From Nitrosomonas sp. PY1 (lineage in GTDB: Bacteria > Pseudomonadota > Gammaproteobacteria > Burkholderiales > Nitrosomonadaceae), in NCBI RefSeq assembly GCF_022836435.1, contig NZ_BQXC01000001.1, positions 438,400-502,399 of the forward strand: a DNA stretch of 64,000 nucleotides, given 5' to 3'. How positions within the stretch are numbered: the first letter of the stretch is position 1; each line of letters starts with the position of its first letter. This document shows positions 60,700 to 62,999 of the stretch, piece by piece. The notes under the pieces are model-generated. The model did no database searches and was not told the DNA's origin. It worked only from the letters and a program-made list of their open reading frames with translations. Both the position numbers and the translations under genes were made by a program.

Positions 60700-61808
60700 T
60701 GAAGCAATTGCACAAAAAGAATGAGAAGCGGTTTGTTATTCTGATCAATTTGTTACTGCTAGTGATCAGTGTAATAACCGTCAATGATTCGGTACAGTCT
60801 TCGCGCTTATTGCCGGTCTTATCTGAGCATTCATTAGTTTTTCCGGACGATTATGGAGCGCATCCGGGTTTTCGTCTCGAGTGGTGGTATATCACTGGAT
60901 GGCTCGAAACGGACGATAAAAAGAAATTGGGTTTTCAGGTGACTTTTTTTCGCTATGCGACAGACTTGAATTCGGAAAATCCGAGTCGATTTGCTGCGAA
61001 AGATGTGATTATTGCACATTTGGCACTATCGGATCCTGTCGTAGGCCGATTAATGCATCGGGAAAAAACTGCACGCGAAGGTTTTGATTTGGCCTATTCA
61101 AAACAAGGAAATACGGATGTAAAGTTGGATGATTGGTCTCTGGTTCGTGAAGAGAATGGAGTTTATCAAGTGGATATGCGAGTGGAAGATTTTGGTCTGC
61201 AATTATCGTTACGGCCAACACAAAAACCAATGCTGCAAGGCGATCAGGGTTTTTCTCGCAAAGGGCCCAAACCGGAGCAGGCAAGCTATTACTATAGTGA
61301 ACCTCACTTAAGCGCGACCGGTACAGTATTCAGAAATCACCAACCGATTCGTGTGAGCGGAGTGGCTTGGTTGGATCATGAGTGGTCAACAGCTTATCTT
61401 GATTCAGATGCGGATGGGTGGGACTGGGTAGGCGCAAATCTGAATGATGGTTCTGCGTTGATGATGTTTCAAATTCGCGGTAAAAAGGGTGATCGAATAT
61501 GGGCTTATGCTGCACTTCGAGAGATTTCCGGAGAGATGCGTTTTTTTACTGCCGATGAAATTGAATTTATACCTATCCGTATGTGGAAATCACCGCATAC
61601 CGAAGCGATATATCCTGTTTCTATGCGTGTTCGTACAGGTGAAATCGAGTGGCAATTGATACCGCTTATGGATGATCAAGAACTGGATGCTAGGCAATCC
61701 ACTGGTGCAGTTTACTGGGAAGGTGCTGTAAAACTGATCAAAGATAATCGCTCGGTTGGACAAGGCTATCTTGAATTGACTGGCTATGTAAGCTCTTTAA
61801 CGTTATAA
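60699..61808 (+). CDS. AttH/CrtC-like lipocalin-fold protein
   Basis: 369 residues with an amino signal-anchor (about residues 12-28). The body begins FPDDYGAHPGFRLEWWYITGWL (the EWWY motif of the family) and has GVAWLDHEWSTAYLDSDADGWDWVG in the middle (cited as WLDHEWST). Such proteins fold as a double lipocalin and are related to carotenoid hydratase CrtC and AttH. Coupled to the FtsX permease, it probably handles a hydrophobic substrate in the periplasm; the substrate is unknown. Confidence 0.85.
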   Translation: MKQLHKKNEKRFVILINLLLLVISVITVNDSVQSSRLLPVLSEHSLVFPDDYGAHPGFRLEWWYITGWLETDDKKKLGFQVTFFRYATDLNSENPSRFAAKDVIIAHLALSDPVVGRLMHREKTAREGFDLAYSKQGNTDVKLDDWSLVREENGVYQVDMRVEDFGLQLSLRPTQKPMLQGDQGFSRKGPKPEQASYYYSEPHLSATGTVFRNHQPIRVSGVAWLDHEWSTAYLDSDADGWDWVGANLNDGSALMMFQIRGKKGDRIWAYAALREISGEMRFFTADEIEFIPIRMWKSPHTEAIYPVSMRVRTGEIEWQLIPLMDDQELDARQSTGAVYWEGAVKLIKDNRSVGQGYLELTGYVSSLTL

Positions 61809-61934
61809 CAGCGCATAAAGGTGACTGGATATTATTTCAATACTTTCATTGTTGATAAATGTGAGTTAGAATTCAAAAGTCAATATGATTGACGTATCGA
61901 GTGTATGATATAAAATCATTGTGAACTGACTATA

Positions 61935-61983
61935 CTCACTTGTTTATTACATCAATTAAGGTTGGATGTAATAAACAAGTGAG
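61935..61983. repeat. Perfect 19-base inverted repeat
   Basis: CTCACTTGTTTATTACATC (61935-61953) and its exact reverse complement (61965-61983) are separated by 11 bases. Outer partial pairing (TGAACT at 61922 with AGTTCA at 61985) extends the symmetry. Neither side is followed by a T run, so it is not a standard terminator. It lies about 100 bases before the small membrane protein at 62085. Confidence 0.85.
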
Positions 61984-62084
61984 AAGTTCATGGTCGATGG
62001 TATGATCATGTAAAGGTAGGAAAAACGTTTCTAAATTTTAGAAGCGAGGTTGTTTGTAGTTTGTAAAATATTAAGGAGAAAAGG

Positions 62085-62201
62085 ATGCAAAACGAAAGTG
62101 GTATCAACAGAAGAGAAACAGATGCACAAGTATTGAGACTGTTCTTTATTTCAACCGCTGCTTTTATTGTTATCGGTGCGGTTATTTACGGAATATTCTA
62201 A
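62085..62201 (+). CDS. 38-residue single-helix membrane protein, unknown
   Basis: A complete short gene: AAGGAG lies a few bases before the ATG, and 38 codons follow. The protein has a polar, basic amino part (about residues 1-18, with NRRETDAQ) and a single hydrophobic helix (LFFISTAAFIVIGAVIYGIF) to the end. Size and shape recall the tiny helper subunits of respiratory or oxidase complexes, but I cannot assign it. It lies between the perfect inverted repeat and the bidirectional terminator, opposite the protoglobin. Confidence 0.75.
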   Translation: MQNESGINRRETDAQVLRLFFISTAAFIVIGAVIYGIF

Positions 62202-62337: not shown

Positions 62338-62376
62338 AAACACCCATTCATCAGATTCAGATGAATGGGTGTTTTT
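62338..62376. terminator. Bidirectional terminator between the small gene and the protoglobin
   Basis: CACCCATTCATC (62341-62352) pairs exactly with GATGAATGGGTG (62360-62371) over a seven-base loop. An A run before and a T run after let it stop transcription from both sides. It separates two convergent genes. Confidence 0.92.
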
Positions 62377-62405: not shown

Positions 62406-62999
62406 CTAGAACTCACCGTCTTTGATGTAAGGCTGAGACCATAATATGACTTGCATCAAAACAGATTTTCTCCAGGCGTCTTGCATGCGATCAACATCAT
62501 CACGGGAATGTCCACCCTTTTCAAGAAATGGGCGTAATGTTGTGGTAATTGGAATTAATAGTGCAAAAATATAATGCACGTGAATGATGGGCACCGATTT
62601 TACATTATCGGTTTTGTTTTTCTTTGCACTATGGTGACGCAAGCCAATTTCGTATTGATAATTTAACCAATTTTGATCGTATTCACCTTTGGCGGTATCT
62701 AAAATCCATTGCCCAAAGCGTTTTCTTACTCCGCCTAGATAATCCATATTCGGTGTGCCGTCAGCTGCATTGGTAAAGTAGTGCAGTAAAAAAGGCGTGG
62801 AACCTACAAAGCCGTACCATACATCCAGGATTTGTTCGGTTTGATCTTTTAGGATGTCATGCGACATTTTCAAATACCGAACGTCGTCATCACCAAATAA
62901 GGATGCTTGCTTGAGCTTTGCAAAATCGTCTATCGACAGGGGGGATTTTTTTAGATCGGCACTACCATAGGTGTATCCTGGTATGTTTGTTGTTGCCAT
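62406..62999 (-). CDS. Protoglobin
   Basis: 197-residue single-domain haem globin of the protoglobin/globin-coupled-sensor lineage, with no signalling domain attached. The proximal haem His lies in YEIGLRHH (His about residue 122), and VWYGFVGSTPFL and the late ILWSQPYIKDG are typical. Protoglobins bind O2, NO and CO and are found in many nitrifiers; a role in NO handling is plausible but not shown here. A GGAAG ribosome-binding site precedes the ATG. Confidence 0.9.
   Translation of the reverse strand: MATTNIPGYTYGSADLKKSPLSIDDFAKLKQASLFGDDDVRYLKMSHDILKDQTEQILDVWYGFVGSTPFLLHYFTNAADGTPNMDYLGGVRKRFGQWILDTAKGEYDQNWLNYQYEIGLRHHSAKKNKTDNVKSVPIIHVHYIFALLIPITTTLRPFLEKGGHSRDDVDRMQDAWRKSVLMQVILWSQPYIKDGEF

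Follow-up and report, generated by a model that had tools for sequence, protein, structure and literature searches.

Two kinds of described system come closest to the locus considered here, namely the small extra subunits of ammonia monooxygenase (AMO), the enzyme that starts nitrification, and the ompA mRNA of E. coli, which carries a stabilising 5′ hairpin. An extra helix in AMO has only recently become visible in structures, and two chains in the PDB are relevant to it: 9cl6_Da, labelled ‘ammonia monooxygenase supernumerary helix’, and 9leg_E, labelled ‘AmoD’. The latter is presumably not the same as the pmoD-like gene that was named amoD in the older literature. The archaeal enzyme also has extra subunits, named AmoX, AmoY and AmoZ. 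Entry 9cl6 we take to be that of Tucci & Rosenzweig (PNAS 2025), with N. europaea as the organism. Small subunits of archaeal AMO besides AmoA, AmoB and AmoC are reportedly described in PMC10030591. We found no paper on the helix gene in oligotropha-type strains or on the leader described below, although one may still exist.

The window (the whole stretch of 64,000 nucleotides from Nitrosomonas sp. PY1 that was analysed) contains a locus for which we favour one reading, considered probable as a whole: an AMO helix gene set apart from the other AMO genes, with its own promoter, a structured leader of about 200 nt in which a conspicuous dyad forms hairpin P1, and a terminator, the hairpins setting the level or stability of the mRNA. 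What was computed is the conservation of the gene, its homology to the PDB chains, the conserved promoter motif and the conserved pairing with covariation; that the leader is transcribed we infer. The locus indicates an AMO helix gene of oligotropha-type Nitrosomonas that stands apart from amoCAB and is found nearly genus-wide, its product falling into no Pfam or NCBIfam family at the thresholds used. The gene bears a hairpin-rich leader with conserved pairing, and the roles of helix and leader are now directly testable.

A sequence-only reading of this DNA had drawn attention to a tiny gene with a good ribosome-binding site about 100 bases past a long exact inverted repeat, and the description holds: the ORF (62085–62201, plus strand) starts with ATG 101 bases from the dyad, and AAGGAG stands before it at 62073–62078 on the same strand. 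The 38-aa product contains a single strongly hydrophobic segment, 19 residues long with a Kyte-Doolittle value of 2.40, as expected of a single transmembrane helix. With a pN/pS of 0.185 (44 distinct core coding sequences), the ORF is a real coding gene. An initial search placed it in 25 of 36 other genomes of the genus and in none of the 24 drawn from elsewhere in the order. With a profile built on 13 relatives the count was 75 of 85 genomes within the genus; a broader profile of 21 relatives, with E values up to 0.1, matched 78 of these 85 and none of 40 genomes from the rest of the family. The suspicion that a real membrane-protein gene had been easy to miss for its size was justified. Matches to the protein profile outside the genus, among 300 genomes of the order, were weak and partial, several of them within larger frames, and were taken as chance.

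Seven genus genomes gave no match (G071, G073, G033, G015, G014, G100 and G105). G014 and G105 have AmoC without a helix match, and a laxer search for the helix in G105, G014, G100 and G033 found nothing convincing. AmoC occurs in 93 of 125 family genomes and the helix in 78 of the 85 from the genus, many of the assemblies being fragmentary; the 40 genomes that represent the rest of the family have no helix match, although many of them contain AmoC. Since there are AmoC-bearing genomes without a helix match both outside the genus and within it (G105, G014), the helix is, as far as sequences indicate, dispensable for AMO in general. Two further observations concern individual genomes. G105 is a near-complete two-contig assembly with AmoC and no recognisable helix gene, and tandem AMO helix genes are found in G065 (three, at C155:17520–18219, in part locus L182) and G068 (two, at C70:21659–22068).

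The evidence for the identity of the protein comes from comparison with PDB sequences. Profile A1, which has 13 rows and contains no N. europaea-type sequences, gave exactly two matches, 9cl6_Da (2.6e-6) and 9leg_E (0.016); with the broader profile A5, in which N. europaea-type rows are included, the values were 3.2e-16 and 8.8e-15, respectively. A diverged genus member used as query reached 9cl6 at 1.5e-17 and 9leg at 1.1e-12, and a third protein type reached 9leg at 4e-7. All 39 residues of 9cl6_Da are contained in an ORF of genome G063 (locus L150), and graded intermediates connect all the types of helix protein. Because of the PDB matches, the identity with the G063 ORF, the intermediates and a promoter motif common to these genes, the gene is taken to be that of the AMO supernumerary helix. 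The product of the window ORF is thus very probably the supernumerary transmembrane helix of Nitrosomonas AMO, and the protein of the window's clade would be expected to reside in the AMO complex.

Upstream of the gene, 75 loci were analysed, in 65 of which a −10 motif was found by regular expression. The core of the conserved promoter motif in the window, CATTGTTGATAAATGTGAGTTAGAAT, lies at 61847–61872 on the plus strand and includes a −10-like TAGAAT at 61867–61872, from which a transcription start near 61880 is predicted. The strict form of the motif is present at 59 of the 75 loci, compared with 4 of 1500 shuffles, and the loose form at 74 of the 75, compared with 81 of 1500; when up to three mismatches are allowed, the source genome contains a single occurrence of the version seen in the window. 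The possibility that the leader is common to amoC was rejected: ten amoC upstream regions from six genomes, with starts called crudely, contain no full promoter motif, and model R1, run across seven genomes, gave one match each in three and none in the other four.

The dyad has arms of 19 nt at 61935–61953 and 61965–61983, 100% complementary and separated by a loop of 11 nt, and is the longest perfect inverted repeat of the window. Only one other with arms of at least 12 nt and a loop of 3–20 is present in the 64 kb, a 15-nt repeat at 62338–62374, so the small gene is bracketed by the two; 20 order-1 Markov simulations yielded one inverted repeat in total, of 13 nt. The repeat at 62338–62374 (plus strand) was recognised by the terminator scan as a terminator-like hairpin that would end the unit. 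It separates the helix gene from the convergent protoglobin gene and is terminator-like on both strands. The dyad itself is followed directly by AAGTTCATGG, with no T run, and the scan listed no Rho-independent terminator there; the earlier observation of a long exact repeat without a T run is therefore confirmed. The RNA fold of 61920–62084 has an energy of −47.6 kcal/mol (z = −6.3). An origin from a repeat element was rejected, since the dyad is single copy in the source genome, where its sole other match is its own inverse. The exact sequence is confined to the clade of the window (the window and L004, L029, L030 and L130); an imperfect form of it occurs in L068 and L131.

An alignment of 42 distinct leaders identifies the dyad as hairpin P1 of a four-hairpin 5′ leader; 43 leaders of 176–231 bases had been kept out of the 65 loci with a −10 motif, three others being excluded by name. 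All four hairpins of the window are on the plus strand. P0 (61881–61923; arms 61881–61890 and 61914–61923) has two mismatches in the window and corresponds to columns 9–18 and 44–53 of alignment A3. P1 (61935–61983) is evident as a perfect repeat, in the RNA fold and in the alignment, and P2 (61989–62010; arms 61989–61995 and 62004–62010) in the MFE fold and the alignment. A third hairpin (62026–62046; arms 62026–62034 and 62038–62046), found by the fold and the terminator scan, is at the place of the P3 of relatives and, in the window's clade, out of register with P3 in the alignment.

Across the 42 leaders, 88.5% of 1521 cells are paired in the four-hairpin structure, against 34.1–53.3% in six slid controls, a count that leans towards P0 and P1 because these two were named after inspection of the alignment; RNAalifold alone chose P2 and P3, and not P0 and P1. 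Covariation is 0.296 in the same leaders against 0.089–0.140 in the slid controls. In 500 shuffles the percentage paired, the number of double-change cells and the covariation score always stayed below the observed values, whereas the number of pairs with a double change (14, shuffle mean 14.5) and that of further pair types (51, shuffle mean 52.6) are not above the shuffles. The same holds for these two numbers without the window's clade, where 92.9% of cells are paired and covariation is 0.347 (37 distinct leaders). By hairpin, 83.3% of cells are paired in P0, 83.3% in the P1 columns (93.0% without the window's clade), 93.4% in P2, with double changes in five of its nine pairs, and 96.2% in the P3 of relatives. 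Other species have different complementary arms in the place of P1, for example CTCAGTTCC facing GGAACAGAG. Pairing is thus kept through sequence change across species, though on two of the five measures shuffles do equally well, and we hold with high confidence that the structured 5′ leader is real. The refuting outcome named earlier, a lack of conservation of dyad and gene, does not apply to the gene or to the pairing, although the exact dyad sequence is clade-specific.

Further evidence comes from a covariance model of P1–P3 built from 38 non-window sequences, with the four window-clade rows deliberately excluded. Applied to the window together with 38 other loci, it matched L004 and L030 at 8.8e-6 and L029 and L130 at 2e-5, and its best place in the window was 61931–62041 (24.0 bits, 0.016), the next standing at 4.3. 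At the scale of whole genomes the G000 site (24 bits) fell below the threshold. In an exchange of arms, P1 arms of the window's clade paired with their cognate partners at −14.4 to −21.9 kcal/mol, and with partners taken from other clades at about −6. Six N. europaea-type leaders have a folding energy of −30.6, where column shuffles give −11.7 (sd 2.8); for eight SDD-type leaders, one of them (L025) shortened by a misplaced start, the corresponding values are −18.4 and −0.3 (sd 0.6). Seven short GGKY-type leaders have no significant structure (−3.3, with shuffles reaching −4.8). It should be noted that one clade (L141, L143, L144 and L146–L149) combines a GGKY-type helix protein with a short leader of about 75–100 bases and no long hairpin-rich structure.

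The region beyond the gene also varies. In many relatives (L005, L084, L120 and others) a 3′ UTR that starts with ACTGA and ends near TCAGT, followed by a strong terminator, spans the first ~130 bases past the stop of the small ORF. In 19 of 26 of these, TG[CT]CC faces GG[GA]CA by regular expression; RNAalifold on the 26 sequences gave nothing useful and no structural support. The window's clade does not have a 3′ UTR of this type.

How might such a leader act? The helix gene is single copy and apart from amoCAB, and its message would be short, running from a start near 61880 through some 200 nt of leader and an ORF of 38 codons to the terminator at 62338–62374. Successive 5′ hairpins might protect so short an mRNA and set its steady-state level, and one helix gene could thereby suffice for an abundant enzyme whose amo genes are present in several copies; AmoC has five matches in the source genome. 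That the leader acts on the stability or level of the mRNA we would put at somewhat short of an even chance. Such a role fits better than an aptamer because the sequence drifts while the pairing is kept, whereas an aptamer should keep unpaired bases. An arrangement in which the leader hides or exposes the ribosome-binding site was rejected, since its predicted accessibility is the same as in shuffled leaders (0.49 compared with 0.47, and higher in 21 of 42).

Alternatively, the leader might be a regulatory RNA and switch synthesis of the helix in response to ammonia, copper, oxygen, NO or AMO assembly, whether as a riboswitch, as a thermometer or by being targeted by an sRNA or protein. A long leader with several conserved hairpins before a single gene, a structure maintained in several clades and the G-rich stretch that links P2 to P3 (of the type GTAGGGGGG) would all suit it, but there are few invariant unpaired positions, unlike in a typical aptamer, the clades differ strongly in sequence, P1 is no terminator, and the ribosome-binding site is no more hidden than in shuffles. 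Neither is there an Rfam match at threshold: the only one for the window leader was mir-2242, with 30.1 bits against a gathering value of 70, and six relatives gave one match, with 25.5 against 90.8. Membership of an Rfam family was rejected, since these microRNA models look like any long hairpin and were matched below threshold. We consider regulation of this kind unlikely, and slightly less likely still the more specific proposal that an undescribed leader, devoted to this one accessory subunit and maintained in most clades of Nitrosomonas, answers AMO assembly, copper or ammonia and so tunes AMO by helix dosage from a locus apart from amoCAB.

It is quite improbable that the small protein is instead an unrelated single-helix protein with a chance resemblance to the AMO helix, for example a partner of the neighbouring crtC-like gene or protoglobin. 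In its favour, the window protein used alone as query reaches 9cl6 only at E 0.0062, and a designed repeat protein ranks ahead of that chain at 0.0006 (with just 2–4 bits for each of its domains); in addition, a crtC-like gene is present in at least 41 of the 75 loci, a lower bound because the fetched loci are short. Against this stand the profile match of 2.6e-6 to 9cl6, the one further PDB match being a related chain, the graded intermediates with their common promoter motif, and the inconstancy of the neighbours of a gene that is nearly genus-wide. The small gene does face a protoglobin (PF11563, E 6.9e-25; 62406–62999, minus strand), as had been proposed. Protoglobin is, however, found in at least 18 of the 75 genomes within the fetched loci, which are short and make this a lower bound, and the small gene near 17 of 52 protoglobin loci, 43 of which are 78–99% identical; a functional link to so inconstant a neighbour was rejected, and there is no sign of the connection with oxygen or NO that had been conceived through it.

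Of the two roles offered earlier for the dyad, an mRNA 5′ structure and a large operator, the first agrees with the leader alignment, in which pairing is kept while the arm sequences change. That the dyad is a palindrome bound by protein at the DNA level, such as an operator, is very improbable. The perfectly symmetric 19-nt arms and a position fairly close downstream of the promoter motif might speak for it, but an operator should keep its sequence, and the half-sites are not conserved between clades; the dyad is also 62 bases beyond the −10 box and single copy in the genome. Equally poor is the idea that the dyad serves the crtC-like gene upstream as a terminator or 3′ hairpin, since the stable hairpin, which begins 126 bases past that gene's stop at 61808, has no T run, is separated from it by the small gene's conserved promoter motif, and has its pairing conserved together with P2 and P3.

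Under the favoured reading, that of a separate AMO helix gene with a structured leader, the locus can be compared with the systems described at the outset. In the ompA message of E. coli, too, stable hairpins stand close to the 5′ end of an abundant mRNA that encodes a membrane protein, but there is no relation in sequence, and a stabilising effect of the helix leader is a proposal. The extra subunits of archaeal AMO are likewise small and additional to AmoA, AmoB and AmoC; they are archaeal, however. AmoD (9leg chain E) belongs by profile to one family with the window protein (0.016 with A1, 8.8e-15 with A5), but is longer, with 45 aa, and has a GGKY tail. Chain Da of 9cl6 differs in that the window protein, of 38 aa, has an NRRETDAQ N-terminal part and is without the C-terminal GGKY tail, and in that the leader of the window gene has another sequence. 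The two nevertheless share a single hydrophobic helix with the matching core STAAFIVIGA.IY/W, and a similar promoter motif stands before the gene in the genome that carries the ORF matching chain Da.
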